IMG/VR virus record: IMGVR_UViG_3300008448_007039
Span: 1-50,393 of that record
Source: a virus
Direction: 5' to 3' (one strand)
Length of the DNA stretch: 50,393 nucleotides
Shown: piece after piece, positions 26,704 to 43,988 of the stretch
How positions within the stretch are numbered: position 1 is the stretch's first letter
Layout: each line of letters starts with the position of its first letter
Translations under genes and position numbers: made by a program
The notes under the pieces: model-generated
Seen by the model: the letters and a program-made list of their open reading frames with translations, nothing else
What the model was told of the DNA's origin: nothing
Database searches by the model: none

Positions 26704-27324
26704 ATGTCGGGCATCACTATAACATATAAAATTGAAGGCTTTTTGAAAGTCTACGACCCTAATAATGGGGAAATTTTCGTGGACAAACATAATGCTATCA
26801 ACTATGAAAATATGTCGGAAGCAATTGCTGACACTTTGAGCAGTCGCGGTTACGGGGAAATTTATCAAATGGCTTTTGGTAACGGAGGTGCAAGTGTAGA
26901 TGCTACTGGAGTTATAACATACCTTCCTCCTAACACAACCGGACAAAATGCAGCATTGTATAATCAAACATATGCTAAAATAGTCGATGATACCAGTGTA
27001 TTTAATTTAGACCCAACACGCAATAAAATGACAGTTTCTCATACTACTGGTAAAGTGTATACTGATATATTAGTTCAATGTTTGTTGGATTACGGTGAGC
27101 CTGCAGGTCAAGGAGCATTTGATAACAGTACACAAACTGATGGTTCCTATGTTTTTGATGAATTGGGATTATTGGCAAACTATGGCACTGATAATAACGG
27201 CGATGTAATAACTAGACTTTTAACACATGTGATCTTTCACCCAGTTCAAAAGTCACTTAACAGACAAATTCAAATTGACTACACTGTGAGAATACAGGCG
27301 TTGACTAATTTGGTAACTATATAA
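26704..27324 (+). CDS. Conserved T4-like phage structural protein (206 aa)
   Basis: A 206-residue protein of a type I recognise from aquatic T4-like phages next to baseplate and tail-fibre genes. Features: N-terminal strands ending in KHNAINYENMSEAIADTL, a conserved QMAFGNGGASVDATGVITYL patch, and a C-terminal strand VIFHPVQKSLNRQIQIDYTV. There is no signal peptide or membrane segment. AGGTGAT (26691-26697) lies 6 bases before the ATG. Its place between the giant protein and the fibre genes suggests a baseplate or fibre-attachment role, but no T4 counterpart can be named. Confidence 0.72.
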   Translation: MSGITITYKIEGFLKVYDPNNGEIFVDKHNAINYENMSEAIADTLSSRGYGEIYQMAFGNGGASVDATGVITYLPPNTTGQNAALYNQTYAKIVDDTSVFNLDPTRNKMTVSHTTGKVYTDILVQCLLDYGEPAGQGAFDNSTQTDGSYVFDELGLLANYGTDNNGDVITRLLTHVIFHPVQKSLNRQIQIDYTVRIQALTNLVTI

Positions 27325-28576: not shown

Positions 28577-29527
28577 ATGAGTTATGCACAATATGGTCTA
28601 ATAGAAGCTACTGATTTCAACAATTACGTTGGTACTAGTCCAAACACATCCAGTGGTGTTTTAAACACTGTTTGGTCTGTAGGTGGAACTACTGCAGGTT
28701 ATGGACAAACAGCAGTACCAACCGTCACTGTTGGTACTACTGTAACTGCCAGTGATTGGGCAAATTTAGTTACATCAACCTCAAATTCTGCATCTCATCA
28801 AGGAACTAGTATTTCAAGTGTAAGTACTCCTACTGCCGGAAACATAGTAACATATGTATCTTCTATTTCTACAAATCTTACATCAATTTATAATAGTAGA
28901 CTTAATGCAATAGCACAAGGTTCTACAACATCTAATACTGCGACGTATGCTACTACTTGGAGTTCAGCAATCACTTTCACTCATACCGCAACATTTGCTA
29001 ATGGTGATGCAGCCAGATATTTCTTCAATTCTGGTGGGCAATTGGCAATAACTTGCTCTCATCCTGGTGGCACCGGGATCAATCTATTATTAAATAATTT
29101 GGCTTCAAACATAGGCACCGTAGTACTTAGTGCTCCTAGTTCAGGTACTGCTACTATTGCTAGCACTTCATATAATGGAGTAACCAAGATAGGTGGCGGT
29201 GGAAATGCACCTACTATATCTCAAAATACAGGATATTATGCACTTACTACTGCAAATGCTACAGTGTTTACTCAAACTGCAAGTACAGGTCCGGCAGGAT
29301 ACTTAAGTACGTTCATAAGAGTTATAGTAAAATCTAACGGAACTCAAGGTAGCAATGGGGATACTGGATCAGTAATAACAGTGTATACTATTTGGGATGA
29401 AGTCCCGGATGGACTAGTAGCAGCTGCCAACTCAGCAACTACATTAACCGTAAGACCTCCTGCTACTACCTATATAAGTAACACTTGGGGTGCAATAACT
29501 TTATCCGGAACCGCATCAGGTTCATAA
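28577..29527 (+). CDS. Tail-fibre-like structural protein
   Basis: 316 residues, low in charge and rich in Thr, Ser, Ala and Gly, as in fibrous virion proteins. It has a globular N-terminus (AQYGLIEATDFNNYVG, then WSVGGTTAGYGQTAVP). A central DAARYFFNSGGQLAITCSHP motif recurs in many phage fibre and appendage proteins ahead of the adhesive tip. The C-terminus is beta-rich (SVITVYTIWDEVPDG). AAGGA lies 6 bases before the ATG, and the gene follows the preceding fibre gene by 9 bases. Its last codons form the left part of a terminator-like hairpin. It is probably a distal fibre or receptor-binding subunit, but the receptor is unknown. Confidence 0.68.
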   Translation: MSYAQYGLIEATDFNNYVGTSPNTSSGVLNTVWSVGGTTAGYGQTAVPTVTVGTTVTASDWANLVTSTSNSASHQGTSISSVSTPTAGNIVTYVSSISTNLTSIYNSRLNAIAQGSTTSNTATYATTWSSAITFTHTATFANGDAARYFFNSGGQLAITCSHPGGTGINLLLNNLASNIGTVVLSAPSSGTATIASTSYNGVTKIGGGGNAPTISQNTGYYALTTANATVFTQTASTGPAGYLSTFIRVIVKSNGTQGSNGDTGSVITVYTIWDEVPDGLVAAANSATTLTVRPPATTYISNTWGAITLSGTASGS

Positions 29528-29535: not shown

Positions 29536-29578
29536 AATTAACTAACTATATCCATCTAAATACTCGCAAGGAGTAATG

Positions 29579-29884
29579 ATGGATACAAAAATATTAATTA
29601 ATGAGGCACGGGCCAGATTTAATCATAATGCAGCAAGAGCCTATCTTAAAGAAAAATACGAAATTCGTCTTATTTTAGCAGATCAGGGCGGCCTTTGGAA
29701 GGTAAACCTTGAAACAATTAATTTTTTAAATAGTATAACAACAGATGATGCAATTCTTTTAGATACTTTTGAAAATCCTATAAAAGTGGATAGAAAAGAT
29801 CTATTAACTAAATTAATAGAAATATATGATAAAGTCATGCAAGAGTGGCATGAAGAATGGACTGAGTTAGAGAAAAAAAGATGA
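29579..29884 (+). CDS. Conserved phage protein of unknown function (101 aa)
   Basis: A small, mostly helical, charged protein. The N-terminus ILINEARARFNHNAARAYL and the C-terminus IYDKVMQEWHEEWTELEKKR match a small protein often seen beside fibre genes in aquatic T4-like phages; its function is not known. Two ATGs are in tandem (29576 and 29579). AAGGAG (29568-29573) is 5 bases before the second but only 2 before the first, so I chose 29579. The 3' end overlaps the next gene by ATGA. It is the first gene after the terminator. Confidence 0.7.
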   Translation: MDTKILINEARARFNHNAARAYLKEKYEIRLILADQGGLWKVNLETINFLNSITTDDAILLDTFENPIKVDRKDLLTKLIEIYDKVMQEWHEEWTELEKKR

Positions 29885-30684
29885 GCAAAGGCGCATTACT
29901 TTTTGCATTTAATTCTGAAAGTTTCAATTATTATAATATGGCAGAATTTGCTGCTAAAAGAATAAATCACTATTTAGATTTACCTGTTACTATAGTTACT
30001 GATGAAAATAGTATACCAAATAAAATAATATATAATTTTGATAAAATCATATTAGTTGAACCCGATAAAAGTAATATAAGAGAAAACAAAATATGGATTA
30101 ATAAGGGAAGATATCAAGCATTTGACTTGACTCCTTATGATGAAACTATAGTATTAGATACTGATTATGTAGTAAACAGTAATTCCTTATTAAAAACTTT
30201 TGACACATATATTGATTTTTGTTGCCATGATACTACATCATTTTTTATGTATCCAAAAGCTCCTCAGGAAATATTAAGTTCGTATAGTTTTAAAACATTA
30301 TGGGCTACCGTGATGACTTTTAAAAAAACTAAAAGAACTAAACATATTTTTGAATGTTTAGAAATGGTTCAAAAAAATTATTCTCATTACGCTAATATTC
30401 ATAGTTTCATAACTAATGTGTATAGAAATGACTATGCACTGACACTTGCATTACGAATTGCCAATGGTCATATTTTATCTGCTACCGATATAATTCCGTG
30501 GAATTTATTACATGTAGGAAAAAATACTAAGGTATATGCAAATAGTGGCACAGAATTCAATAACGAATATACAGTGTTATTTGATAATTGGCAACGAGGA
30601 AAAATTAAGAAAGAATATATAACAATCAAAGATATAGATTTTCACGTAATGTCTAAAGAAAACTTTGTGGAGTTGATAAATTGA
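29881..30684 (+). CDS. Putative GT-A-fold glycosyltransferase
   Basis: 267 residues. The layout is that of small GT-A glycosyltransferases: an N-terminal Rossmann-like half (LPVTIVTDEN), then YDETIVLDTDYVV with a DTD motif at residues 93-95, the usual metal and nucleotide-sugar binding signature, then LWATVMTFKKTKR and a late PWNLLHVGKN that could form the acceptor loop. Donor and acceptor are unknown. It overlaps the upstream gene by ATGA, and its own TGA overlaps the TTG start of the next gene, so the three genes should be translated together. Likely substrates are a virion or host-surface glycan (inference). Confidence 0.6.
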   Translation: MSKGALLFAFNSESFNYYNMAEFAAKRINHYLDLPVTIVTDENSIPNKIIYNFDKIILVEPDKSNIRENKIWINKGRYQAFDLTPYDETIVLDTDYVVNSNSLLKTFDTYIDFCCHDTTSFFMYPKAPQEILSSYSFKTLWATVMTFKKTKRTKHIFECLEMVQKNYSHYANIHSFITNVYRNDYALTLALRIANGHILSATDIIPWNLLHVGKNTKVYANSGTEFNNEYTVLFDNWQRGKIKKEYITIKDIDFHVMSKENFVELIN

Positions 30685-31487
30685 ATAAAGGATTTGTCAT
30701 AATTGCACAAGATGTGCATAATTCTACTGTATATCAGGATTGTGCATATGCGTTAGCACTAAGTATTAGAAAATCTATGCCCGAAGCAAAAATTTCTATA
30801 ATTACTGATAACGAAATAAAAAACAATGAAATATATGATAGTATTATTTCTCTACCATATGGTGATCAAGACTTAAATGGAAATTGGAAACTAATCAATG
30901 ATTGGCAAGTATATGATGCTAGTCCTTATGAATATACTATAAAGTTAGAAGCGGATCTATATATTCCTAGATCAATAGAACATTGGTGGGAAGTGTTAAA
31001 ATACAGAGATTTAGTTATATCTACTACAATACGCGACTTTAAACAAGAAATTTCGTATAGTAGAGCCTATCGTAAATTTATTGATGATAATAAATTACCC
31101 AATACATATAATGCAATCACTTATTTCAGAAAATCAACTACGGCAAAAAAGTTTTTTGATATAGTAAAAAATATATTTGAAAATTGGTCTGAATTTAGAG
31201 CGTTACTAAAGTGTAATCCATATGAAGAGGTCACTACTGATTGGGTGTACGCAATTGCTGCTCATATTATAGGTAAAGAGAATTGTACATTACCTAATTT
31301 TACAGAAATGAGTATGGTTCATATGAAGAGATTAATTAATCATTTACCTACTGAAGATTGGACTGACACTCTGATTTATGAAATTCTACCGCATACGTTG
31401 AGGATAAATTCATGTCCACAACATTATCCATTTCATTATCATATAAAACATTTTTCTAATAAAATAACGAATTCATATGGACAATAA
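30681..31487 (+). CDS. Putative glycosyltransferase-like protein (TTG start)
   Basis: 268 residues, about the same length and layout as the preceding protein. It has the N-terminal strand GFVIIAQDV, then AKISIITDNE, then YEYTIKLEADLYI at about residues 84-95 where EAD replaces the usual DxD, then YNAITYFRKS. This pattern (moved 'coordinates' strand, acidic triad, then a Y-N-A strand) is typical of GT-A-like phage proteins, but the altered triad leaves activity uncertain. The start is TTG at 30681 inside the upstream TGA (TTGA overlap); the first in-frame ATG lies over 30 codons further in and would remove the first strand. Confidence 0.55.
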   Translation: MNKGFVIIAQDVHNSTVYQDCAYALALSIRKSMPEAKISIITDNEIKNNEIYDSIISLPYGDQDLNGNWKLINDWQVYDASPYEYTIKLEADLYIPRSIEHWWEVLKYRDLVISTTIRDFKQEISYSRAYRKFIDDNKLPNTYNAITYFRKSTTAKKFFDIVKNIFENWSEFRALLKCNPYEEVTTDWVYAIAAHIIGKENCTLPNFTEMSMVHMKRLINHLPTEDWTDTLIYEILPHTLRINSCPQHYPFHYHIKHFSNKITNSYGQ

Positions 31488-31824
31488 AGAAGATAATTTT
31501 ATTGCTTGGGAAGCACCTGAGATAATCGCTCCTGAGTTTCGATTATACTATGAAAAGGATACTGGAAAAGTTATTTGTTATACATGTGAAAAACCTGAAG
31601 GTTCTTACATCATAATTGATGCTAATACGTATGCTCAAGCCAGACCCGATGTTCGCATAATAGACGGAAAAATTTCTACAGTGCAAACACATTTTGTGGT
31701 TTCTAAACTGATGCCTACTGCTTCACTAGAAGGTCAACTATGCGAAGATGCTGATGTAAGTGTGATCAGCACAGATGACGAAGGTACCATCAAATGGAAA
31801 TTGAATACATATGAACTCAAGTGA
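31477..31824 (+). CDS. Conserved phage protein of unknown function (115 aa)
   Basis: A small acidic protein. The blocks IAWEAPEIIAPEFRLYYEKD, then GKVICYTCEKPEGSYIIIDA, then TYAQARPDVRIIDGKIST match a conserved small protein of T4-like aquatic phages, always without a known role. Two Cys in a CYTC pair could bind metal, but the second pair needed for a zinc ribbon is not seen. It overlaps the upstream gene by 11 bases and the downstream gene by 14 bases, so it is part of one coupled unit. Confidence 0.68.
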   Translation: MDNKEDNFIAWEAPEIIAPEFRLYYEKDTGKVICYTCEKPEGSYIIIDANTYAQARPDVRIIDGKISTVQTHFVVSKLMPTASLEGQLCEDADVSVISTDDEGTIKWKLNTYELK

Positions 31825-32764
31825 TATTATTGATATTGCTGATTTGGATATCGTATATCTGAGTTATGACGAACCACAGAAAGAAGAATTTTGGCTTAAG
31901 ATCAAGAATATGGTACCATGGGCTAAAAGAGTTGACGGTGTAAAGGGCAGTGATGCTGCACATAAAGCGGCCGGCGAAATAAGCGATACAGAAAGATTTA
32001 TTCTTATTGACGGCGATAATATGCCAACCGAAAGTTTCTTTAACCTGCAACTAGATTTTAGCAATAAGGACCCTAAATATAAACTAGCGCAATTTCGTTG
32101 GAAAGCGGTCAATGCAGTTAATGGATTGCGTTATGGAAATGGTGGAATGAGCAGTTGGACAAAAACATATGTTGCTAATATGAAAACTCACGAGGCACAA
32201 AAAGACGGAGATGCAACTAGGATTGCTGATTTTTGTCTAGATAGTGCTGATAATTTATATTGGGCAATGCATGATTGCTATTCAACGACATATCCAAACT
32301 TTACTCCTTTTCAAGCATGGCGTGCAGGATTCCGTGAAGGTGTTAAAATGTGTTTGAATAGCGGTGAAGTCCCTAGTGTAGAAGAATTTAAACAAACAGT
32401 AGCAAGTAGAAACCTCAATAATTTGACCATATGGCATAATGTGGGCAGCGATGTAGATCAAGGTTTGTGGGCAATATATGGAGCAAGACTGGGGACATAT
32501 ATGACATTATTAACTGATTGGAATGCACATAATGTTCAATGGTTTGATAATTATATAAGTATGTGGGAAGAGCATAAATTTAGAGACCCATTAGATCAAA
32601 TAGATCAATTAGGTGAGTGCCTATCTGATAAATTAAGTTTGCCTATGTGTATGTTAAATCCTGAGCAAAGTAAATTTTTTAAACGTCACTACGGTTCTAA
32701 TTTTCATAATTTGGGACCATTAATTACAGAGATGGAAATTATTCGAGGCCTTGAAGGTTGGTAA
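31811..32764 (+). CDS. Glycosyltransferase-like phage protein with DGDN motif
   Basis: 317 residues. The start LDIVYLSYDEPQKEEFWLKI, then MVPWAKRVDGVKGSDAAHKA, then ERFILIDGDNMPT (DGDN at residues 67-70) is the order seen in GT-A enzymes: a first nucleotide-binding strand, a Lys-rich loop, then an acidic metal site. The rest is Trp-rich and helical (SSWTKTYVANM, DCYSTTYPNFTPFQAWRAGF) and resembles a conserved aquatic-phage family of unassigned function. It overlaps the upstream gene by 14 bases, and the next gene starts within its stop codon (TAATG). Confidence 0.6.
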   Translation: MNSSDIIDIADLDIVYLSYDEPQKEEFWLKIKNMVPWAKRVDGVKGSDAAHKAAGEISDTERFILIDGDNMPTESFFNLQLDFSNKDPKYKLAQFRWKAVNAVNGLRYGNGGMSSWTKTYVANMKTHEAQKDGDATRIADFCLDSADNLYWAMHDCYSTTYPNFTPFQAWRAGFREGVKMCLNSGEVPSVEEFKQTVASRNLNNLTIWHNVGSDVDQGLWAIYGARLGTYMTLLTDWNAHNVQWFDNYISMWEEHKFRDPLDQIDQLGECLSDKLSLPMCMLNPEQSKFFKRHYGSNFHNLGPLITEMEIIRGLEGW

Positions 32765-34170
32765 TGAGTGAGAATCACGAACAAAAAAGAATCAAAGAAA
32801 TAAAAATCAGGATTGAAAATGAAGTAGGTCCTACTTTTTGTTTAGCCAAATGGCACCATGTAACAATGTACTTGCAAAGTGGTGAGACACACAGTTGCTA
32901 TCACCCACAACCTCATAAAATCCCACTAGAAGAACTTTATGATAATCCTAGTGCATTGCACAACACGCAGCAGAAAAAAGAAGAACGAAAACTAATGCTA
33001 GATGGTGGTAAACCTACTGGCTGTCAATATTGCTGGAACATTGAAGCAATGGGTCCTGATTATATCAGTGATAGACATATTCGTAACGGTAGTATCTTTA
33101 CAGAAGAAAGATACGAACAGACTGCCATGGGCGCATGGAATCAAAACATCAATCCAGAGTATATAGAAATTAACTTCGGTAATGAATGTAATTTCAAATG
33201 TGGCTATTGCCACCCAAAATATTCAACTAGTTTTTATAAAGAAATTAAAGACAATGGTCCTGTAACTACAGTTAAGAATCATCGTTGCGATATTGATTGG
33301 ATGAGATTGTATCAGCGGGAGGATGAGAATCCGTATGTTGATGCATTTTGGGAGTGGTGGCCTGAAATGCGTAAGACACTGAACATCATACGCATCACCG
33401 GCGGAGAGCCTACATTACATCGTAGTACTTGGCGTTTCTTAGATCAAGTTGAACAGGATCCTATGCCATGGTTAGAAATTAACATTAATAGTAATCTAGG
33501 AACAAAGAATGTATTAATTGAAAGACTTGCTAATAAAGTTAAAAAGTTAACAGATGAAAATAAGATCAGAACTTTTAAACTTTTTACTAGTTTGGATACA
33601 TGGGGTCCTAAAGCAGAATATATTCGCACTGGACTTGATTTAGAAGTATGGGAAAAGAATTTTCACACATACTTGCAAAATACAAACAGTCCTATTACTT
33701 TCATGATTACATTCAATATTTTCAGTGTAACTACATTTAAGAGTTTCTTAGAAAAATTTATAGAATGGCGTAAAATATATGGCTGGTATGATGATCCAGT
33801 TAACCCCCAGCACCGCATACGATTTGATACTCCTTATTTGCGAGATCCAATCCAATATGATATGAATATTCTTCCTAAAGAAGAATTCATGCCTTACATG
33901 TACGAAGCATTAACCTTCATGAGAGAAAATGTTAATGATAAAAGATCAGACGCATTTTCTTCAATTGAGTATGAAAAATTTAAGCGTGTAGTTGATTACA
34001 TGGCAGAAACAGTTTATCCTGAAGAAAAACTTATAGAAGGTCGTAGAGATTTTTACAATTGGTTTAATGAATTGGATGAGCGCCGTGAAACAGATATGTT
34101 ATCTGTGTTTCCAGAAATGTTAGGATTTTATAGATTATGTCAAGAAACGAATCATCTAAACCCGTTCTAA
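32764..34170 (+). CDS. Radical-SAM protein with N-terminal twitch-like domain (1 of 4)
   Basis: 468 residues. The radical-SAM core has C142-x3-C146-x2-C149 (NECNFKCGYC), which would bind the [4Fe-4S] cluster that cleaves S-adenosylmethionine, and ITGGEPTLH (GGEP at 213-216), the SAM-binding signature. Before the core, Cys 26, 45, 87 and 90 (FCLAKWHH, SCYHP, GCQYCW) look like an auxiliary-cluster twitch/SPASM-like segment placed ahead of the core. The start is ATG 32764 (TAATG overlap) with GAAGG 6 bases before it; a TTG at 32758 is also in frame but poorer. Substrate unknown; peptide or sugar modification is inferred from the family and neighbours. Confidence 0.8.
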   Translation: MSENHEQKRIKEIKIRIENEVGPTFCLAKWHHVTMYLQSGETHSCYHPQPHKIPLEELYDNPSALHNTQQKKEERKLMLDGGKPTGCQYCWNIEAMGPDYISDRHIRNGSIFTEERYEQTAMGAWNQNINPEYIEINFGNECNFKCGYCHPKYSTSFYKEIKDNGPVTTVKNHRCDIDWMRLYQREDENPYVDAFWEWWPEMRKTLNIIRITGGEPTLHRSTWRFLDQVEQDPMPWLEININSNLGTKNVLIERLANKVKKLTDENKIRTFKLFTSLDTWGPKAEYIRTGLDLEVWEKNFHTYLQNTNSPITFMITFNIFSVTTFKSFLEKFIEWRKIYGWYDDPVNPQHRIRFDTPYLRDPIQYDMNILPKEEFMPYMYEALTFMRENVNDKRSDAFSSIEYEKFKRVVDYMAETVYPEEKLIEGRRDFYNWFNELDERRETDMLSVFPEMLGFYRLCQETNHLNPF

Positions 34171-35408
34171 ATTTAGACAAAGAATTTAATTTAACAGAAA
34201 GTAAATCTTTTTGCATTCTGCCATGGATCCATGTACATTCTTCTCCTCGTGGAAATAGTGGGCCATGCTGTATTTCAAAATCATGTGCCTCTGAAAACGG
34301 TATGGGAAATACTAAAACTAAATCTATATATGAAATAGTAAATTCTCCTGAAATGAACAAACTTAGATTGGATATGTTGTCTAATGTTTTGAATGAAGAA
34401 TGTATGGTTTGTCATATGCATGAACAACAACTAGCAAGAAGTTCTAGACAACAAAAAAATAAAATATTATCAGAATTTTATGATGAGTCTATTAGAAATA
34501 CAAATTCAGATGGATCCTTGCAAGAATTCAAAATGAGATATTTTGATATACGTATCAGTAATATTTGTAATTTTAAGTGTAGGACTTGCAATTCAGTGTT
34601 TAGCAGTCAATGGGAACAAGAAGATTTAAAAAATATTGATAATGCAGTAGTTTTTACAAAAAATAATAATAGATTATTAAATGAAATTCTACATCAAGTG
34701 CCTAATATAAAAGAGGCATATTTTGCAGGCGGAGAACCTCTCATTACTGATGAACACTATATAATATTAGAAGAAATGATAAGGTTAGATGTGGCTAAAG
34801 AAATTACTCTAAGTTACAACACTAACGCTAGTGCTTTAAAATATAAAAATAAAGATTTAATTTCACTATGGAAGTATTTTAGTAAAGGAGTAAAGGTTTC
34901 TGCTAGTATAGATCATTATGGAGAAAGAGCAGAATACATTAGACATGGTACGGACTGGGGAAAAGTAGAAAGCAATATAAAAATATTACGTAGCATTCCT
35001 AATATAGAATTTAATATGAATACTGTTCTTAGTGTATTCAATTGCCTTACCCTAAGTGATTTTTATGAATATTTAATTAAAAATAATCTCTATAATTCTA
35101 AGAATAGAATTTATTCAATTTATAATATGATTTCTCCTGATTATCTGTCCTGTCATATTTTACCTAAAGAATACAAAACAAAAAGCCTTAATGATTTAAA
35201 TAAAACTAAATTTTTATTAATGAAAAATGGCTTCACTGGCGAAAAATTATCCCCTATAGAAAATTCGATAAATTGGGTAAACTTATATGATACATGGGAT
35301 AGTCAAAAAGAACTATTTAAAAAAGAGATTAATCGAATCGACGCCATACGTAATGAAGATTTTAAAAAAACTTTTCCAGAACTAGAAAAACTATTGGACA
35401 TCGAATGA
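34137..35408 (+). CDS. Radical-SAM protein with N-terminal twitch-like domain (2 of 4)
   Basis: 423 residues. N-terminal cluster-like segment: FCILPWIH (C26), SGPCC (C44, C45) and ECMVCHMHE (C89, C92). Core: SNICNFKCRTC (C144, C148, C151) and YFAGGEPL (GGEP at 198-201). It is close to the next protein over its full length (shared FKMRYFDIR or FRMRYFDIR, HYGERAE, GTDWGKVESN), so the two are recent paralogues. Base composition is clearly more AT-rich than that of gene 1 in this series. It overlaps the upstream gene by 34 bases, and its TGA overlaps the next ATG. The duplicated pair probably acts on related substrates (inference). Confidence 0.8.
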   Translation: MSRNESSKPVLNLDKEFNLTESKSFCILPWIHVHSSPRGNSGPCCISKSCASENGMGNTKTKSIYEIVNSPEMNKLRLDMLSNVLNEECMVCHMHEQQLARSSRQQKNKILSEFYDESIRNTNSDGSLQEFKMRYFDIRISNICNFKCRTCNSVFSSQWEQEDLKNIDNAVVFTKNNNRLLNEILHQVPNIKEAYFAGGEPLITDEHYIILEEMIRLDVAKEITLSYNTNASALKYKNKDLISLWKYFSKGVKVSASIDHYGERAEYIRHGTDWGKVESNIKILRSIPNIEFNMNTVLSVFNCLTLSDFYEYLIKNNLYNSKNRIYSIYNMISPDYLSCHILPKEYKTKSLNDLNKTKFLLMKNGFTGEKLSPIENSINWVNLYDTWDSQKELFKKEINRIDAIRNEDFKKTFPELEKLLDIE

Positions 35409-36634
35409 ATAAAGAATATTTACTGAAAGATAGTAAAACTTTTTGTATGTTTCCATGGATACATTTAAATGTAACACCCAAAGGAGATATATATCCTTGT
35501 TGCAGTAATGACTATACAAATCCATATGGTAATACAAAAGAAGTTACATTAGAACAAGCATTTAATAGTCCTAAGATGAAACAATTAAGATTAGATATGC
35601 TTAGTGAAAAGAAAAATGAAATGTGTAATTTTTGCTATAAACATGAAGAAGCAGGTCCGCACAGTTTTAGAAATTATAGCAAGGAGCATTTTAGCAAACA
35701 TTTTGACGAAATAGTTCCTACTACACAATCGGATGGTACAGTAGAAGAATTCCGCATGCGCTACTTTGATATAAGATTTAGTAATATTTGTAATTTCAAA
35801 TGTAGAACCTGTGGGAGTGAATTTAGTAGTCAATGGGGTCTAGAAATGAACAAAAATTATGACCCAAAGCATCCTATATTAATCCATGCTGATAGTAATA
35901 CCGGAAAATTATTAGAAGAAGTATTAGAACATATAGAGTATATAGATTTGGCATACTTTGCCGGTGGAGAACCGTTAATTACAGAAGAGCATTATTTAAT
36001 ATTAGAAGAAATGATTCGCAAAGGACGAACTGATATTACATTGCGATATAATACGAATGCAAGTAATATAAAATATAAGAATCATGATGTACTTGACTTA
36101 TGGAAGCATTTTAAAAGAATTGAATTAAGTTGCAGTGTAGATCACTATGGCGAACGAGCAGAAATGTTGCGTAGTGGAACAGACTGGGGAAAAGTAGAAA
36201 GTAATCTACTAACATTTCGAGATTTAGATTATGTTATCTTTCAAATGAACACTGTATTTTCTATATTCAATTATCTTACTATTGGTGAGTTTTATCAATA
36301 TCTACAAGATAAAAACATAGTTCGCAGAGAAGATTGGTATCATAGTTTATATCTCGCTGTGCATCCAATGTATTATAGTGCTAAAAGTTTACCCAAATCA
36401 TTAAAGCCATTAGCACAAGAAAAGGCCTTGGCTTGGGCAGATAAGAATGATAGCAATGGAACTTGTTTATCTAGGTTAGTACGTGATGCTGTTAACTTTG
36501 CAAATGACGGTGATACTTGGAGTGAAGTTAAAACTAAGTTTTTAGGACATACCAAATCATTAGACAGGATACGAAATGAAAGTTTTTGGAAAGTGTTTCC
36601 TGAATTAAATAGTTTATCTGAATTGATGGAGTAA
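35405..36634 (+). CDS. Radical-SAM protein with N-terminal twitch-like domain (3 of 4)
   Basis: 409 residues. N-terminal segment: FCMFPWIH (C14), PKGDIYPCC (C32, C33) and CNFCYKHE (C74, C77). The order 'C, PxGxxxPCC, GNT, NSP-x-M-x-x-LR, CxxC' is SPASM/twitch-like but sits before the core, unlike classical anaerobic sulfatase-maturing enzymes, where it follows. Core: SNICNFKCRTC (C129, C133, C136) and YFAGGEPL (187-190), then IELSCSVDHYGERAEML. It overlaps the upstream gene by ATGA and is followed after 3 bases by the next paralogue. No activity can be assigned. Confidence 0.8.
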   Translation: MNKEYLLKDSKTFCMFPWIHLNVTPKGDIYPCCSNDYTNPYGNTKEVTLEQAFNSPKMKQLRLDMLSEKKNEMCNFCYKHEEAGPHSFRNYSKEHFSKHFDEIVPTTQSDGTVEEFRMRYFDIRFSNICNFKCRTCGSEFSSQWGLEMNKNYDPKHPILIHADSNTGKLLEEVLEHIEYIDLAYFAGGEPLITEEHYLILEEMIRKGRTDITLRYNTNASNIKYKNHDVLDLWKHFKRIELSCSVDHYGERAEMLRSGTDWGKVESNLLTFRDLDYVIFQMNTVFSIFNYLTIGEFYQYLQDKNIVRREDWYHSLYLAVHPMYYSAKSLPKSLKPLAQEKALAWADKNDSNGTCLSRLVRDAVNFANDGDTWSEVKTKFLGHTKSLDRIRNESFWKVFPELNSLSELME

Positions 36635-36637
36635 TTA

Positions 36638-37909
36638 ATGGACACGATAACAGTAGAAAGTTTAGTTAAACATGGTAAACATTTTTGTGTTTTGCCATGG
36701 GTCCATTTTCATAGTTGGCCTGACGGAAGAGTTCTTCCTTGCTGTGTGGCAGATAGCAATATGCCGGTAGCCAGTCTTAAAGATAATGAGTCAATTATTA
36801 ATATGATGAACTCTGCCGATTATAAAAAGTTACGCAAAGCAATGATCAACGATGAACCAGTTGAAGCATGTAAGCGTTGTTATGACCTTGAACTTATGGG
36901 TACATGGACAATGCGTCAATCTCATAATAAGCGGAAAGGTCTTGAGTATGTAAAATATATTAGCGAAAATACTCTAGATGACGGGAGCCTTATTGATTTT
37001 GAAATGAAATACATGGATTTGCGCTTCAGTAGCATTTGTAATATGAAATGCCGAAGTTGTGGTCCAGGATGCTCAAGTCAATGGGCACAAGAATTTGTTG
37101 ATCGTGTGGGTATAGATAACTATGAAAAATACTTTCACACAAAAAAGATAGTGGTTAATGCATCAGAAGAAATGAGTTTTATGAACAAACTAAAACCCTA
37201 TCTGAATGATGTAACTGAAGTTTATTTTGCCGGTGGAGAAATTGTAATTACTCCTGAGCATTATGAATGTCTAGACTATTGGATTGAAAACGGAATAAAT
37301 GAGACAATCGAATTAACATATACAACTAACTTTAGTACCCTAAAAGGGTATAAAGATAAAGACTTGATTGAATATTGGAAAAAATTTCCTAAATTAAAAA
37401 TTTGGGCTAGTCTTGATGCTCATGGTAAAGTAGCAGAATGTATCAGAAAAGGCACCGATTGGGATCGTATTGTTAATAACATTAAATTGTTAAAAGAACA
37501 AGTTCCCCATGCTGAATTTCAAATCACTCCTACTATTAGCATATGGAATGTATTTACTTTTCCTGATTTTTTTGACTATATGGTTAAAGAAGGCTTTATT
37601 GATACTAAAAGTAGTCCGCGTTTCAATTTAGCAACTAATCCATGGTATGCTAACATTATGATACTGCCTGTCAGTATAAAACGCAGACTGGCAGAACTAT
37701 ATCGAGTATATCAAAATCGTTATAAAGATAACATAGAAATACATAATGGTTTTAAAATGATAATTTATAATCTAACAGTTGGTGATGAAAACAAAAACGG
37801 TATCAAAGAGTTCATTAAATTTAACGAAGAATTAGATGACTTTAGAAAAGAAAAATTAGAAGATATTATACCCGAACTTAAAGAGGTGTTTGATTGGGCA
37901 AGAAACTAA
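36638..37909 (+). CDS. Radical-SAM protein with N-terminal twitch-like domain (4 of 4; GGEI variant)
   Basis: 423 residues. N-terminal segment: FCVLPWVHFH (C17), PDGRVLPCC (C35, C36) and ACKRCYDLELMG (C78, C81). Core: SSICNMKCRSC (C134, C138, C141), with an extra Cys at 145. The SAM-contact motif reads YFAGGEI instead of GGEP. Later motifs (WASLDAHGKVAECIRKGTDW) parallel those of the two preceding proteins but with lower identity, so it is an older paralogue. GGAG lies 6 bases before the ATG. The last 16 bases overlap the next gene. The Pro-to-Ile change may alter SAM binding or be tolerated. Confidence 0.78.
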   Translation: MDTITVESLVKHGKHFCVLPWVHFHSWPDGRVLPCCVADSNMPVASLKDNESIINMMNSADYKKLRKAMINDEPVEACKRCYDLELMGTWTMRQSHNKRKGLEYVKYISENTLDDGSLIDFEMKYMDLRFSSICNMKCRSCGPGCSSQWAQEFVDRVGIDNYEKYFHTKKIVVNASEEMSFMNKLKPYLNDVTEVYFAGGEIVITPEHYECLDYWIENGINETIELTYTTNFSTLKGYKDKDLIEYWKKFPKLKIWASLDAHGKVAECIRKGTDWDRIVNNIKLLKEQVPHAEFQITPTISIWNVFTFPDFFDYMVKEGFIDTKSSPRFNLATNPWYANIMILPVSIKRRLAELYRVYQNRYKDNIEIHNGFKMIIYNLTVGDENKNGIKEFIKFNEELDDFRKEKLEDIIPELKEVFDWARN

Positions 37910-38874
37910 TTGCTATTGAAGCACCAGAGCGTTATGTTGCCATCACGTGGCAAGTAAATAACTTCTGCAATTTTAAATGTAGTTACTGCAACCCTGGCAA
38001 TTGGGGAGGCAGTAACCGCAATGAAGGTAACTTAGACAAATACTTAGAAAACTTGGGTATAATTGTAAATCGTTATCGTAGTGCAGGTTATAAGAATTTT
38101 AAGTTCTTTTTTAGCGGTGGCGAACCTACAGCATGGGAAAACTTTATTCCTATATGTGAGTGGATACATGAAACATTGCCTAAGTCTACACTAGCAGTCA
38201 ATACAAATCTAAGCCGCCCTACTGCATGGTGGGAAAAGAACTATCATTTGTTCGATGACATTGTTGCTAGTTTTCACATTGAATTTGCAGACAAAAAAAG
38301 ATATGAAGATAACTCAATACTACTTTGTGACAAAGTAAATTACCTTTCATCTAAAATACTCATGCATGAAGAAAGATTTTGGGAAGTGGTGGAATTCGCT
38401 GAACATTTAAAAACAATAATGCCAAATTATTTTATTGAATGGACTCCTTTATATGATGAACTAAGCCATATTACTGGACCATGGCAATATAAAGATCCTG
38501 CTAAAACAGAATTTTTTAAAACACACAATATTGAAATGAAATTCACACTACCTAAACCGAATAAAAGAACTGAAAATACTGTTAGTTACAACAAATATTC
38601 TGATAATTCTACTCAGTTTTGTAATGCGAATGAATTAATTGTTAATGGAGAAAACTTTTTTAATGGCTGGAATTGTGATGTAGGTGACTGTGTTTTTATT
38701 AACCCAGTAGGTGATGTTAGTTTGGCTAGTTGTGGATTGGGGGGTTATGTAGGACATATTTTAGATGATATATCTAGAGTAATGCCTAAACAAATTGTAT
38801 GTAGCAAAGATATGTGTATGTGTGGAACTGATATCAACATACCTAAATTTTATAACACAAAGGCAATGAAATAA
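37894..38874 (+). CDS. Radical-SAM protein with C-terminal Cys-rich (SPASM/twitch-like) domain
   Basis: 326 residues. Here the core comes first: NNFCNFKCSYCNPG (C25, C29, C32) and FFFSGGEPTAW (GGEP at 75-78). The C-terminal part has FCNANELIVN (C243), GWNCDVGDC (C261, C266), PVGDVSLASCG (C280) and IVCSKDMCMCG (C303, C308, C310), enough ligands for one or more auxiliary iron-sulfur clusters in the conventional order. Its arrangement is thus the reverse of the four proteins before it. The start is TTG 37894, with AAGAGG (37881-37886) 7 bases upstream and a 16-base overlap with the previous gene. Confidence 0.78.
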   Translation: MGKKLIAIEAPERYVAITWQVNNFCNFKCSYCNPGNWGGSNRNEGNLDKYLENLGIIVNRYRSAGYKNFKFFFSGGEPTAWENFIPICEWIHETLPKSTLAVNTNLSRPTAWWEKNYHLFDDIVASFHIEFADKKRYEDNSILLCDKVNYLSSKILMHEERFWEVVEFAEHLKTIMPNYFIEWTPLYDELSHITGPWQYKDPAKTEFFKTHNIEMKFTLPKPNKRTENTVSYNKYSDNSTQFCNANELIVNGENFFNGWNCDVGDCVFINPVGDVSLASCGLGGYVGHILDDISRVMPKQIVCSKDMCMCGTDINIPKFYNTKAMK

Positions 38875-38875
38875 G

Positions 38876-40195
38876 ATGAGTACCAATTATAGTCCTATAA
38901 AAATAGTGTATAATTGGATAGGTCCTAAAGGACCTATCCCTAATACAGAAATTCCTAATTTATTAAATTTGGGCAGTACTATGGATGATGTAACTGTTTT
39001 TGGCAACAAATTTTGGGCAGACAATATATGGAGTGGTATATTTTGTAATCAATCAGGATACGACCTTAGTCCGGCTACTTATTTAGACCAAAATACCGCA
39101 TTTGTGTACCCCTTCACATTAACATGGAGAATACCTTTTCTTACCTATTTTTATAATGATTGCGGTTTATTAGAATACGGATATACTTCTAACCAGATAA
39201 AACATTTAGTAAGATTACATAAAGGATATTTCTTATTGGATGCATCGGCCGAAGCATGGGTCGAGAACTTTCACCTAACTGCTATGCACTCTTATTTTGA
39301 TTTCCATCATATTCCTTTATCAAAAATAATTTATTTGACTGGGTGTATGAATGCAAACTCGCTCTACAATGAATGGCTCAACACTAAAGGTATAGTAGAC
39401 CCCAGACAAAAAATGAATATTATTTCATTTCCCATATCACAAGATTCAATCGCTACCTATTTTGACGCTTATAAACCACAAGTTCCTGAATATAATGTAG
39501 ACAAAGTACCTGAAAAGTTGTTTTTAAGTTGGAATAGACGATTTAGGTATCATAGAATTTCGATAGCCTTAGGATTGCATAAATTGAATTTATTGGATAA
39601 GTCTTATGTGAGTATGGGAATCACAGATCCTGAAAACATTAATGTTACTATAGAAAGCAAATATAATAGTTATTATACTAATGATATAGGTATTTCTTTA
39701 GATGATATACATGCTTTTAAAAATAAATTACCGTTGGTCCTTGATGGAGAAACGGATACTACTAAAATGTGTCAAGATTTCTTGGATTTAAATAGACCAT
39801 ACTATCAAAATAGTTTAGTCAGCATTGTAACTGAGACAAATTATGATGCAAGAGAAGTTACTTTAACTGAAAAATCATTTAAACCTAGCAAAGAAAAGCA
39901 TCCGTTTATAGTTGTAGGCGCGCCTAAAACTTTACAAGCATTTAGGGATATGGGATTTAAAACATTTAATGAGTTTTGGGATGAAAATTACGATAATATG
40001 ACAGACCCAAAACAAAGAATGAATGCTATATTTGATGTATTCAAATATATAGGATCTTGGAATAAAGAACAGATTGTGGACTTTAGAAAAAAAGTAAAAC
40101 CTATTTTAGATCATAATTATGAAATTCTGAAAAAAAGACAATCTATTGTAGTTGCAGATAAAATAAGACAACTGATAATTGATAAAGGCCACTAA
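38876..40195 (+). CDS. Putative glycosyltransferase-like protein (439 aa)
   Basis: 439 residues. The first half is variable; the second half has KLFLSWNRRFRYHRISIALG and then SLVSIVTETNYDAREVTLTE directly followed by KSFKPSKEKHPFIVVGAPKT and FRDMGFKTF-EFWDENYD. That last succession (V-T-E, then E-K-(S/I)-F-KP, then HPF-(I/V)-V-G, then LGF-x-T-F) is a hallmark of GT-B-type exostosin/fucosyltransferase-like C-terminal donor-binding halves, so a nucleotide-sugar-dependent transferase is plausible. No signal peptide. Its stop overlaps the ATG of the epimerase gene (TAATG), which fits a shared sugar pathway. Confidence 0.55.
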   Translation: MSTNYSPIKIVYNWIGPKGPIPNTEIPNLLNLGSTMDDVTVFGNKFWADNIWSGIFCNQSGYDLSPATYLDQNTAFVYPFTLTWRIPFLTYFYNDCGLLEYGYTSNQIKHLVRLHKGYFLLDASAEAWVENFHLTAMHSYFDFHHIPLSKIIYLTGCMNANSLYNEWLNTKGIVDPRQKMNIISFPISQDSIATYFDAYKPQVPEYNVDKVPEKLFLSWNRRFRYHRISIALGLHKLNLLDKSYVSMGITDPENINVTIESKYNSYYTNDIGISLDDIHAFKNKLPLVLDGETDTTKMCQDFLDLNRPYYQNSLVSIVTETNYDAREVTLTEKSFKPSKEKHPFIVVGAPKTLQAFRDMGFKTFNEFWDENYDNMTDPKQRMNAIFDVFKYIGSWNKEQIVDFRKKVKPILDHNYEILKKRQSIVVADKIRQLIIDKGH

Positions 40196-41172
40196 TGAAA
40201 AAAATTCTTGTATGCGGGGGAGGTGGGTTCATAGGAACTCACTTGATAGAAAAATTAAAAGATCAAGGTAATTATGTTATTGCTGCGGACTTGCATCTTC
40301 CTTTATATAGTCAAACTGTAGCAGATGAATTTTATTTAATGGATCTCCGCTCACAAGAGAATGTAAAAAATTTGATTACATCAAATATTGATGAAATTTA
40401 TCAATTGGCAGCCGATATGGGTGGTGCCGGATACATCTTCACTGGTGATCATGATGCCGATATCATGCACAATAGTTGTCAGATAAATTTAAATATATTA
40501 GACACTATGGTAAAAAATAAAGTAAAAAAAGTATTTTATTCTAGCAGTGCGTGTATGTATCCGGCATACAATCAAGAAGATCCTACTAATCCCCTGTGTA
40601 GAGAAACTAGCGCATATCCGGCTGAGCCAGATAGCGAATATGGTTGGGAAAAATTATTTAGCGAACGACTATATTTAACATATGCAAAAAACTATAATTT
40701 AGATGTACGCATTGCACGTTTTCATAATATATTTGGTCCTAGAGGTAGTTGGAATAACGGAAAAGAAAAAGCCCCGGCTGCATTGTGTCGTAAAGTAGCG
40801 ATGTCTAAAGATAATGATACTATTGAAGTTTGGGGACCAGGGATACAAACACGTTCATTTTTATTTATTGAAGAGTGTCTTGAAGGTATACAAAGAATAA
40901 TGAATAGTAATTATACTCTTCCATTGAATTTAGGAAGTACAAAAATGATTAGTATAAATGATTTAGTTTATACAATCGCAAGATTGGCCAATAAAACAGT
41001 ACAAATAAAAAATATATCAGGTCCTGTAGGAGTAATGGGTCGTAATAGCGATAATGCTTTAATAAGACAAATGATTGATTGGGTACCTGATGAAGATTTA
41101 GAATTAGGTTTGATTAAAACGTATAATTGGATACAAGATCAAATAAAATCAAACAAACAGGATATTAAATGA
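40195..41172 (+). CDS. gme: NAD-dependent epimerase, GDP-mannose 3,5-epimerase-like
   Basis: 325 residues, an extended short-chain dehydrogenase/reductase. The N-terminus ILVCGGGGFIGTH is the NAD-binding glycine motif. The catalytic pair lies in SSSACMYPAY and EYGWEKLFSERLY (Y-x3-K). ADMGGAGYIFTGDHDADIM, ARFHNIFGPRGSW, EKAPAALCRK, TRSFLFIEECLEG and MGRNSDNALI follow the signature order of GDP-mannose 3,5-epimerase, which converts GDP-D-mannose to GDP-L-galactose or GDP-L-gulose. The protein is full-length compared with the family. AAAGG lies 6 bases before the ATG. It sits between a transferase-like gene and an SGNH-like gene, so it probably supplies an activated hexose for glycan building; a related hexose epimerisation is the main alternative. 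Confidence 0.85.
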   Translation: MKKILVCGGGGFIGTHLIEKLKDQGNYVIAADLHLPLYSQTVADEFYLMDLRSQENVKNLITSNIDEIYQLAADMGGAGYIFTGDHDADIMHNSCQINLNILDTMVKNKVKKVFYSSSACMYPAYNQEDPTNPLCRETSAYPAEPDSEYGWEKLFSERLYLTYAKNYNLDVRIARFHNIFGPRGSWNNGKEKAPAALCRKVAMSKDNDTIEVWGPGIQTRSFLFIEECLEGIQRIMNSNYTLPLNLGSTKMISINDLVYTIARLANKTVQIKNISGPVGVMGRNSDNALIRQMIDWVPDEDLELGLIKTYNWIQDQIKSNKQDIK

Positions 41173-42038
41173 AAAAACATATAGTAGGCATTGGTTGTAG
41201 TTGGACCCAAGGTGAAGGCGGATATCCTGATAAAGTATGGAAAGAGCACGGTGGTAGAGTTCAAGTGAGAATGCGTAGCGATCATTATCTGCGAAAAATA
41301 GAACATGAAAACAGTTGGGTAAACGTATTATGTCGTGATTATTTTCCTGAGTATGAATCGGTAAATTTAGGAGTCCGTGGTATAGGTAATAAAGCAGCAG
41401 TAGAACAACTATATTTCTGTGATACTATAGATTGGAATAATAGCACCGGCATAATTGTATTAATGCTTAGTGGATTTGAACGGTTTGATGTGCTTCAACA
41501 AAATCCGTATAGTTGGGACGGGGAAGATGATTTTTATTCAACTAATAAATATAGACACTATAAGTGGAGAACCGCGTGGCCCTTCACTTCAGCGGATGGT
41601 GACAAATTTTGGGAATGCTATAGCAAAGAATTATGGTCTGAACAATTTGTAGCAGGTAATCAGATGCTTGCATTACTAGAATTACAAACATTTGCCAAAG
41701 CACATGGATATAAAGTTGTAGTAGCAAATGCTTTTAATCAACGCAATGAAGGTATAGTGCAATATTTATATGATAATGCAGGATATTTGGCTGATAAATT
41801 TAATTGGGACTGTTATGTGCATAACACAACTCCTTATACTGCATTTGTGCAAAAATTAATAGAAATGGATGGATTAATCCCTCCCAATCATTGGGGAGGT
41901 TTTCATTCTTATTATCATAAACTTGACTGGCCCGCTAAATATTTGACAAACTGCGAAGGTGCCCATCCTACACTTGAGGGATATAAAGTAATAGGTGGGG
42001 AACTTGCAGACTTTATCAAATTACGCGGTTATGCCTAA
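41169..42038 (+). CDS. SGNH/GDSL hydrolase-like protein (1 of 3)
   Basis: 289 residues. SGNH blocks in order: block I GIGCSWTQGEGG with the candidate nucleophile Ser in GCSWT; block II NLGVRGIGNKAAVEQL (Gly); a middle strand GIIVLMLSGFERFD where block III Asn would be; and block V near the C-terminus, CEGAHPTLEGYKVIG, with His in AHPT. Such folds act as carbohydrate esterases or O-acyltransferases, but phage members have no proven substrate, and the missing clear Asn leaves catalysis open. It overlaps the epimerase stop (ATGA), with CAGGA 6 bases upstream, and overlaps the next gene by 8 bases. Confidence 0.68.
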   Translation: MKKHIVGIGCSWTQGEGGYPDKVWKEHGGRVQVRMRSDHYLRKIEHENSWVNVLCRDYFPEYESVNLGVRGIGNKAAVEQLYFCDTIDWNNSTGIIVLMLSGFERFDVLQQNPYSWDGEDDFYSTNKYRHYKWRTAWPFTSADGDKFWECYSKELWSEQFVAGNQMLALLELQTFAKAHGYKVVVANAFNQRNEGIVQYLYDNAGYLADKFNWDCYVHNTTPYTAFVQKLIEMDGLIPPNHWGGFHSYYHKLDWPAKYLTNCEGAHPTLEGYKVIGGELADFIKLRGYA

Positions 42039-43953
42039 AAAGAAAATAAGTTTCGTTAGTCCAAACTTTCAACAAGGTCCAAAAGAATTTAACGCATATT
42101 ATTTGCCCTATTCTTGCGGTATACTGTGGAGTTATGCTGCACAATTTCCTGAGATATATGATAACTATGAACTAGGTGAGTTCATTTGGCGCAGAGACAC
42201 CATTGAAGAAGCAATAGAAACATTGAAAGATAGTGATATTGTTGGTTTCAGTGTGTACATTTGGAATAGAAGTTACAGCAACGTATTGGCTAGAGAATTA
42301 AAGAAAGCAAATCCCGATATCTTTATTATATGGGGTGGACCTGAGCCACCTATTGAAAATCCTCATTTCTTTGACAAATTACCTTTTGTTGACATCTGTG
42401 TTAAACTTGAGGGTGAAAAGAGTTTCAAATCAATTCTATACCACTATGTCACTGATAAAGACTACACTAATATTCCTGGATTGTTAATCAATGATAATGG
42501 GAAACTAATAGATACCGGCGACAGTCTGCGTATCGATGATTTAGATACAATACCGAGCCCATATCTAACAGATGTATTCAAGCCATTAATGGAAAAGTTT
42601 CCAAAGATTCGTTGGAATGCAACATTAGAAAGTAATCGCGGATGCCCCTACGCTTGCACATTCTGCGATTGGGGAAGTCTCACATATAACAAAGTTAAGA
42701 AGTTTGGTATTGAAAGAGTGTATGACGAATTTGAATGGGTAGGTAGAAACAAGTGTGACTTTGTTAGTTTAACTGATGCAAACTTTGGCATCTTTCCTGA
42801 GCGTGATAGCATGATTGCTGATAAACTAATCGAAGTTCAAAAGAAATATAACAATCCAAAAGCATATACAATCAGTTGGGCAAAGAATCAAAAACGTGAA
42901 GTCGTAGAAATTGTTCGTAAGTTAATTTATGAAGGCGGTAGTAAATTAGGTCTTAACCTGTCAGTGCAGACAATGGATGAAAACGTATTGGATATCATCA
43001 AACGCAAAAACCTAGATACTAATAAAATCGAAGAAGTATTTGAACTCTGTGAACAATACAATATTCCATTATATACGGAATTAATCTTAGGGCTACCCGG
43101 GGAAACATTAGACAGTTGGAAAAATAATTTTTATAAATTATTTGAAGCAGGTAATCACACCGGCATCACTATCTATCAAGCACAGTTGCTTGAAAATGCT
43201 GAAATGAATTTGTCTCAGCGCAAGATGTATAGGCTAGAAGGACGTATAGTTTATGATTATCTAGTTGGGACATACAATGAACATGAACTAAAAGAAGGAA
43301 TTGAAGTTGTAATATCAACTAGAGATTTACCAAACGATAAAATGATTGAGGCACAGATATTCAGTTGGTTCATGAATACATTTCATATTAATGGAATTAC
43401 TAATTATATTAGCCGTGTTTTATATAAAAAAGGCATATCATATCAAGAGTTTTATAATAGGTTATTAGAGTTTATTAAAAAAGATGAATGGTTAAACAGT
43501 GAAATACATCGTATAAAAGAACATTATAGTAATTGGGCTAAACACGGAAGAATAGATCATGTACCTATTCAAGGTATGGAAATTCATGGTTGGAATCTAA
43601 TACATAGTACAATTATTAATTTACATAGCGAAGATAAACATGAACATATTTTTAATGTAATTAAAAAATTTTTAAAAGAATTTAATATAGAAGAATCATT
43701 ATTAAAAGATTTAATGATATTTCAACAATGTTTTTTAATAAATTATAGTAAAGCAAAATCGTATCCCTTTAAACTAAAGTTAAATCATGATATATTAGGT
43801 TATTTACAAGAAGGTAGAGATTTAAATAAAGTTTGTGAATATGAATTTGATTTTCCTGAAAATAAAGAAATGAGTTTACAGCAATTTTGTGAGCAAATAT
43901 TCTTTGCTCGTAGAAGAAACTTTGGTAAATCATGGATTACTAGGGTAGAGTAG
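42031..43953 (+). CDS. B12-binding-type radical-SAM protein (1 of 2)
   Basis: 640 residues. The N-terminal part (about 1-165) looks like a Rossmann-type cobalamin-binding domain (DIVGFSVYIWNRSYSNVLA, then IIWGGPEPP, then VKLEGEKSF), although the DxHxxG base-off motif is absent. The core has SNRGCPYACTFCDWGS (C205, C209, C212), then VSLTDANFGI, then LGLNLSVQTMDENVL and ELILGLPGET, the usual class B methyltransferase/oxidoreductase order. The last 200 residues are unassigned. The start ATGCCTAA lies inside the previous stop region; an in-frame ATG at 41995 would overlap more and add no domain. GC changes from about 43% (42601-42700) to about 15% (43621-43740) within this gene. Confidence 0.8.
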   Translation: MPKKKISFVSPNFQQGPKEFNAYYLPYSCGILWSYAAQFPEIYDNYELGEFIWRRDTIEEAIETLKDSDIVGFSVYIWNRSYSNVLARELKKANPDIFIIWGGPEPPIENPHFFDKLPFVDICVKLEGEKSFKSILYHYVTDKDYTNIPGLLINDNGKLIDTGDSLRIDDLDTIPSPYLTDVFKPLMEKFPKIRWNATLESNRGCPYACTFCDWGSLTYNKVKKFGIERVYDEFEWVGRNKCDFVSLTDANFGIFPERDSMIADKLIEVQKKYNNPKAYTISWAKNQKREVVEIVRKLIYEGGSKLGLNLSVQTMDENVLDIIKRKNLDTNKIEEVFELCEQYNIPLYTELILGLPGETLDSWKNNFYKLFEAGNHTGITIYQAQLLENAEMNLSQRKMYRLEGRIVYDYLVGTYNEHELKEGIEVVISTRDLPNDKMIEAQIFSWFMNTFHINGITNYISRVLYKKGISYQEFYNRLLEFIKKDEWLNSEIHRIKEHYSNWAKHGRIDHVPIQGMEIHGWNLIHSTIINLHSEDKHEHIFNVIKKFLKEFNIEESLLKDLMIFQQCFLINYSKAKSYPFKLKLNHDILGYLQEGRDLNKVCEYEFDFPENKEMSLQQFCEQIFFARRRNFGKSWITRVE

Positions 43954-43988
43954 CATGATGAAAAAATATTACTAATTATTTTATCATG
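43954..43988 (+). promoter_or_regulatory. Hairpin that pairs the start codon of the next gene
   Basis: CATGATGAAA (43954-43963) pairs with TTTTATCATG (43979-43988): ten pairs with one G-T, then three more after a mismatch. The right arm ends in the ATG (43986-43988) of the next gene, and no ribosome-binding site is visible. It could hold the start codon closed until the upstream gene is translated. The stem is AT-rich, so it may be weak. Confidence 0.4.

Follow-up and report, generated by a model that had tools for sequence, protein, structure and literature searches.

Five adjoining radical-SAM genes in jumbo phages related to Atu_ph07: part of a possible glycan-tailoring cassette

The five-gene run and its cysteine motifs

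We analyzed IMG/VR virus record IMGVR_UViG_3300008448_007039 (50,393 bases; the window), which is a fragment because an open reading frame (ORF) is still running at its end. Five adjoining radical S-adenosylmethionine (radical-SAM) genes, named R1 to R5, occupy positions 32764-38874 of the + strand. Gene calls bore out the original prediction, which had placed five consecutive radical-SAM genes here and had considered all of them to be coupled by overlaps. Overlaps were present at R1/R2 (−34 nt), R2/R3 (−4 nt), and R4/R5 (−16 nt), but R3 and R4 are separated by 3 nt, and coupling of all five was therefore wrong at one junction. The run overlaps the upstream gene GTc by 1 nt and is followed by the next gene at +1 nt. 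R1 starts with ATG (the 470-aa listing corresponds to a TTG start lying 6 nt upstream), and the start codon of R5 is TTG. Two genes farther downstream, B12a and B12b, also encode B12-binding radical-SAM proteins, giving seven radical-SAM genes in approximately 14 kb.

R1–R4 carry the segment C-x12/13-G-x4-C(C)...CxxC within their first 92 residues, ahead of the CX3CX2C core at residues ~129-151. The predicted order (C, PxG-PCC or a variant, CxxC) was thus found in all four proteins, with R1 having a single Cys (SCYHP) where R2–R4 have two. The fifth protein was correctly described as having its Cys-rich part after the core: the R5 core lies at residues 25-32 and is followed by C261, C280, C303, C308, and C310, all invariant in 25 relatives. 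Non-conservation of the N-terminal Cys in homologues would have counted against the prediction; the motif Cys were 100% conserved in de-replicated relatives of R1 (n = 20), R2 (n = 52), R3 (n = 41), and R4 (n = 30). The N-terminal motif occurred in 595 of 732 distinct homologues (fragments included), compared with 64 of 6000 shuffled N-termini. Against the nearest relative, the nonsynonymous proportion (pN) of R1, R3, R4, and R5 was 0.04-0.06 and the synonymous proportion (pS) was ~0.7; because pN was low despite synonymous sites near saturation, these four genes are under strong purifying selection. The family scores given below, the shuffle test, and pN/pS show that neither the Cys pattern nor the radical-SAM run is due to chance.

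All of R1–R4 matched NCBIfam family NF033640 (N_Twi_rSAM) near full length, above its curated cut-off of 170 bits (scores in Table 1), and their architecture does not differ from that of the family. We know of no substrate for NF033640. R5 is not a member (29.5 bits); its Cys lie behind the core, it has no N-terminal twitch domain, and its Pfam Radical_SAM match was slightly below the cut-off. Pfam placed a SPASM domain at the N-terminus of R2–R4. When the profile of alignment A1 (65 rows, mostly R3 and R3-like sequences, plus R4, R2, and five R1-type sequences) was compared with the PDB, it matched the radical-SAM dehydrogenase BtrN: positions 14-87 corresponded to the BtrN twitch domain (184-258 of 4m7t), the match between the cores was weak, and the domain order was reversed. 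The R1 profile did not recover BtrN from the PDB, although R1 retains the Cys pattern, and the BtrN link therefore depends on A1; a single-sequence search of the PDB with R3 gave no match. Given the Pfam SPASM matches of R2–R4, the NF033640 membership, and the BtrN profile match, the N-terminal segment of R1–R4 is probably an auxiliary-cluster domain of the twitch type, as had been proposed.

The twitch motif CX9-15GX4C-gap-CX2C (four Cys, one auxiliary cluster) was present in R1–R4. The seven-Cys SPASM motif (two auxiliary clusters) was not found, the auxiliary domain having four to five conserved Cys per protein. Each of R1–R4 may hold two clusters in all. BtrN shares the C-x9-15-G-x4-C...CxxC segment with R1–R4, but its twitch domain follows the core (PDB 4M7T), whereas that of R1–R4 precedes it, and the match was obtained through the alignment profile only. 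A C-terminal auxiliary domain, as in BtrN, was found in R5 and in none of R1–R4. The reaction of BtrN is the oxidation of a cyclitol, in which the auxiliary cluster has been proposed as electron acceptor (PMC9012708); further twitch enzymes include SkfB and MoaA (PMC6231123).

The AlphaFold2 (AF2) model of R3 was confident (predicted local distance difference test score, pLDDT, 94.8). Foldseek comparison with the PDB returned partial matches with low template modeling (TM) scores (CteB, anSME, viperin, and similar), which would fit a rearranged domain order; the structural neighbors of the R3 barrel include CteB, anSME, and SuiB. In a viral fold library, full-length relatives came from uncultured phages, Vibrio phages KVP40 and phi-pp2 were more distant, and proteins of phages CP220 and CP20 matched R3 only in part. 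The R5 model had a pLDDT of 85.5, and its nearest folds were MoaA and the sugar-nucleoside enzyme BlsE, at modest TM values of ~0.5.

Cassette layout, gene lineages, and neighboring genes

The comparison of gene neighborhoods that the prediction had called for was made in 153 de-replicated IMG/VR loci longer than 15 kb. Because these loci were found with radical-SAM queries and ranked by similarity, the counts hold for this group and not for all phages. The layout consisted of a constant block (tail and baseplate structural genes, then p102, GTa, GTb, p115, and GTc) followed by a variable run, in which radical-SAM genes are mixed with p439, an epimerase, SG proteins, B12-binding radical-SAM proteins, and a carbamoyltransferase. 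The number of N_Twi genes per locus ranged from one to eight (median, 4). A p439 homologue was present in 147 loci (Table 1), GTc-type proteins in 146, GTb in 140, GTa in 139, and S403 in 127, and GTc was the gene immediately 5′ of the first N_Twi gene in 91 of the 153 loci. Neighboring radical-SAM genes overlapped or were no more than 10 nt apart in 396 of 406 pairs.

In a tree of 169 proteins, also suggested beforehand, R1, R2, R3, and R4 fell into separate clades. R1 was the first of the four to split and R2 and R3 were sisters, with some nodes weakly supported. Judged from this tree, R1–R4 are four old orthologous lineages. Recent tandem duplication was ruled out, since the clades are separate and have members in many phages. 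Gene orders were counted in the first 130 loci (not de-replicated) and the window. The most common were R1-R2-R3-R4-R5 (36), R1-R3-R4-R5 (30), R1-R4-R5 (13, several of which seem to hide R3 through ORF picking, the same contigs being recovered by the R3 query), and R1-R2-R3-R3-R4-R5 (10). R2 was missing from the nearest relatives, in which R1 runs straight into R3. The core is thus R1-R3-R4-R5, and R2 is optional. The run of paralogues had been read as a modification pathway carried by the phage, which remains plausible; a fixed five-step pathway is not supported, R2 being optional and the run length variable. In five loci (L063, L091, L093, L098, and L103), R1 is followed by a ~40%-identical R4, a divergent N_Twi gene, a ~47%-identical R5, and another N_Twi gene, as if the downstream part had been exchanged as a block. 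In two contigs longer than 330 kb (L110 and L119), strings of small ORFs interrupt the run between R1 and the next radical-SAM gene.

The genes around the run are listed in Table 1. The window contains a combination expected of phage polysaccharide-modification clusters, a nucleotide-sugar epimerase (PF01370) together with a sugar-decorating carbamoyltransferase. GTa and GTb are putative glycosyltransferases, GTa through its homology to GTb, which itself has a weak glycogenin match; GTc is a possible and p439 a guessed glycosyltransferase, both by motif only. GTa and p439 gave no usable match and GTc no supporting match in PHROGs, Pfam, or the PDB, and hhalign comparisons of GTa and GTb with phage GT8 and of GTc with GT2 gave no support. 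The nearest NCBIfam family of B12a was NF033712 (KedN5), with a score under its cut-off.

Table 1. Features of the cassette and its surroundings, with positions in the window
Feature	Position	Strand	Description
S206	26704..27324	+	Baseplate-type protein 5′ of the cassette; ~50% identical to jumbo-phage proteins
S403	27356..28567	+	Virion structural/fiber-type; phrog_14394 (virion structural); homologue in same order in Atu_ph07
S316	28577..29527	+	Ser/Thr-rich (31.6% S+T); speculative glycan acceptor, from composition and conserved position
p102	29576..29884	+	Small conserved protein; kept in 95 collected loci, median 58% identity
GTa	29881..30684	+	Putative GT-A type glycosyltransferase; invariant D93/D95; GTb homologue (hhalign)
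GTb	30681..31487	+	Putative GT8-like glycosyltransferase; weak glycogenin profile match, E 0.0045
p115	31477..31824	+	Small conserved protein; conserved neighbor
GTc	31811..32764	+	Possible glycosyltransferase by motif only; invariant D67xD69
R1	32764..34170	+	N_Twi radical-SAM protein, most conserved in run; NF033640, 311 bits; invariant Cys
R2	34137..35408	+	N_Twi radical-SAM protein, optional; NF033640, 356 bits
R3	35405..36634	+	N_Twi radical-SAM protein; NF033640, 375 bits; AF2 pLDDT 94.8
R4	36638..37909	+	N_Twi radical-SAM protein; NF033640, 358 bits
R5	37894..38874	+	Radical-SAM protein; Cys-rich domain 3′ of core; outside N_Twi
p439	38876..40195	+	Guessed glycosyltransferase; homologue in 147/153 loci
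EPI	40195..41172	+	Nucleotide-sugar epimerase/dehydratase; PF01370, E 4.5e-38; phrog_540
B12a	41995..43953	+	B12-binding radical-SAM protein; PF04055 + PF02310
B12b	44864..47110	+	Second B12-binding radical-SAM protein; PF04055 + PF02310
CBT	47956..49428	+	Carbamoyltransferase (Nol-like); PF16861 + PF02543; phrog_1601

The jumbo phages with proteins similar to S206 were Atu_ph07 (490 kb) and PBECO4-type phages (~350 kb); an S206 homologue is annotated as a baseplate protein in fEgEco12, and several related contigs exceeded 330 kb. The window phage resembles the Agrobacterium jumbo phage Atu_ph07, a Rak2-like relative. Both have the order gp25-like, gp6-like, giant structural protein, S206, S403, and Atu_ph07 has three radical-SAM genes and a cupin gene at the syntenic place after S403. 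However, its three radical-SAM proteins are not clearly N_Twi, and no homologues of GTa, GTb, GTc, or p439 were detected in it. The giant gene of the window is a single 5012-aa ORF at 11505-26543; its 4449-aa homologue in Atu_ph07 is annotated as a T4-like structural protein. No relatives of R1, R5, or GTc were detectable in the isolate-phage collection. Relatives of R3 and R4 in that collection came from Vibrio phages and one marine single-virus record. In Vibrio phage K566, N_Twi genes flank a GT8 gene.

N_Twi genes were rare in cells, being found in 2 of 399 Pseudomonadota genomes and 2 of 385 genomes in one class, with the same phage contig (G001) counted in both. Contig NZVE01000006.1 of a Rhodobacteraceae metagenome-assembled genome is a phage relative of the window and represents a binning error. 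Cellular homologues of R5 were likewise rejected, since the sole genome-contig match was a phage contig binned in a Rhodobacteraceae metagenome-assembled genome; this search was pattern-based, and distant homologues may escape it. Of the two non-phage loci, one (G077) has four tandem N_Twi genes, one of which is joined to an ABC_tran-Wzt_C protein; genes for an ABC2 permease, RmlD, WbsX, and TylF are close by. The other (G745) has a single N_Twi gene near GT2, GT8, an epimerase, and a B12-binding radical-SAM protein. Because both are polysaccharide-type loci and K566 has its GT8 gene, the association of N_Twi with sugar genes recurs in other backgrounds, two cellular cases being a small sample. 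The fusion of a Wzt-type ABC ATPase, in one frame, to an N_Twi radical-SAM protein lies in a bacterial polysaccharide locus at L144:8579-11143 (− strand).

Glycan tailoring and alternative readings

Our favored reading, held tentatively and at somewhat less than even chance, is that R1–R5 form the radical-SAM portion of a variable cassette for glycan tailoring in Atu_ph07-related jumbo phages, the glycan being most likely destined for virion tail or fiber proteins. In this scheme, the constant block supplies putative glycosyltransferases that would assemble a sugar chain. Each of R1–R4, with a SAM-cleaving 4Fe-4S cluster and an N-terminal twitch cluster, would then perform one C-H abstraction step, oxidising, epimerising, or deoxygenating one sugar position, and the auxiliary cluster would serve as electron acceptor or substrate anchor. 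R5 may catalyze a related step with its C-terminal auxiliary domain, and the epimerase, the B12-binding radical-SAM proteins, and the carbamoyltransferase would complete the product. The glycan would decorate tail or fiber proteins such as the Ser/Thr-rich S316, and gain or loss of radical-SAM genes would diversify it.

This reading is favored because pelagimyophages show glycosyltransferase and radical-SAM cassettes in a tail-fiber-linked region (PMC7029224), and because in our loci the constant block precedes one to eight N_Twi genes, S403 is present in most, and the Atu_ph07 radical-SAM genes are syntenic. Linkage to fiber and baseplate genes and the composition of S316 make the virion the likelier target. 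A carbohydrate substrate is suggested by the twitch match to BtrN, a cyclitol dehydrogenase, by the epimerase and carbamoyltransferase in the same run as the radical-SAM genes, by the weak glycogenin match of GTb and the homology of GTa to it, and by the sugar genes beside N_Twi in the two non-phage cellular loci and K566.

Several points weigh against it. There is no known substrate, product, or virion glycan; GTa, GTc, and p439 are without database support; only two non-phage cellular N_Twi loci were found; loci L035-L042 hold R1-R3-R4-R5 without the tail block; and peptides are also substrates of twitch and SPASM enzymes. A bolder formulation, which we consider less likely than not, is that a large class of uncultured jumbo phages coats its own tail fibers with rare sugars. 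These would be radically modified by an exchangeable line of twitch-before-core radical-SAM enzymes, and gene gain and loss would vary the coat.

The same sugar-tailoring chemistry might instead be directed, during infection, at O-antigen or capsule on the surface of the host, for instance to prevent superinfection. Phage sugar clusters have been interpreted in this way (PMC7029224; PMC7824862), and the ABC exporter and rhamnose genes near cellular N_Twi genes are typical of O-antigen loci. However, the cassette is packed 3′ of tail structural genes, and no flippase, polymerase, initiating transferase, or exporter was found among the called genes of the window, although the record is incomplete and the host could provide such machinery; we consider a host-surface target unlikely. 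Less probable again is modification of a protein or peptide in the manner of ribosomally synthesized and post-translationally modified peptides (RiPPs), with the fiber proteins S403 and S316 or the small p115 and p102 as substrates. Peptide modifiers are common among SPASM and twitch enzymes (PMC6231123; PMC9012708), the R3 barrel resembles CteB, anSME, and SuiB, and the cassette adjoins structural and small conserved genes. Against this, no PqqD-like RiPP recognition domain was matched by Pfam in R1–R5 at E 0.1, and no precursor gene fits inside the run, where the window junctions range from −34 to +3 nt; p115 and p102 upstream may still be substrates. In several loci no p115 homologue was detected and an unrelated-looking ~190-aa ORF takes its place. 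The tight spacing of radical-SAM pairs across the loci favors a glycan over a precursor peptide within the run, and the epimerase and carbamoyltransferase also argue against a peptide.

The least probable of these products, and one that we regard as improbable, is a small soluble compound, either a secondary metabolite or a modified nucleoside, which would aid the infected cell or harm competitors. It would agree with the BlsE and MoaA folds nearest to R5, with the secondary-metabolite reading of cyanophage carbamoyltransferase clusters (PMC7824862), and with the host-fitness role proposed for the CP220 radical-SAM module (PMC2853527), but not with the tight linkage to tail genes and the GTa-GTb-GTc block in more than 100 loci.

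Known phage modules and further observations

Phage modules with multiple radical-SAM genes were already known. Campylobacter phages CP220 and CPt10 encode 11-12 radical-SAM proteins, and five of the genes, as many as in the window run, form an interchangeable module (PMC2853527); that module also has a glycine amidinotransferase, whereas no amidinotransferase was found among the scanned called genes of the window. A T4-like marine genome has 12 radical-SAM proteins (PMC5332604). In pelagimyophages, glycosyltransferases and radical-SAM cassettes lie in the host-recognition cluster, a variable region linked to tail fibers (PMC7029224), but these T4-like SAR11 phages belong to another group, and the likeness is one of layout. 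A survey of jumbo phages described polysaccharide clusters and left radical SAM unmentioned (PMC7824862), and none of the literature searched joined jumbo phage, radical SAM, and glycosyltransferase. The earlier statement that no defined product was known for such a phage cluster holds for the product, which is still undefined, but not for the cluster type, since the family has a name (NF033640) and five-gene modules had been described. To this, the present analysis adds the order of the orthologues, the layout of a constant block with a variable run, the linkage to tail genes in phages related to Atu_ph07, and the relation to BtrN with the twitch domain placed before the core.

If the glycan-tailoring reading is true, phages would use radical sugar chemistry of their own to make a variable coat for the virion or a surface. 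The excess of radical-SAM genes in phage genomes, noted repeatedly but left unexplained (CP220/CPt10, the T4-like marine phage with 12, and pelagimyophages), would then have a reason. With its twitch domain ahead of the core, the N_Twi architecture is a domain rearrangement made by nature, through which the role of the auxiliary cluster can be tested. The question is testable in cultured phages: Vibrio phage K566, Atu_ph07 (syntenic site), and KVP40 (structural match).

Three small proteins of the window (41169-42038, 43986-44768, and 47113-47850) have starts that look SGNH-hydrolase-like by eye (GCSWTQG, GCSFT, and GCSHTSG), and one of them matches DUF6071 weakly. The last ORF, at 49432-50391 and cut by the record end, encodes a protein that repeats internally a unit of the type FDFSWHPDPTDPPYIYQFGTQW..TGGP.

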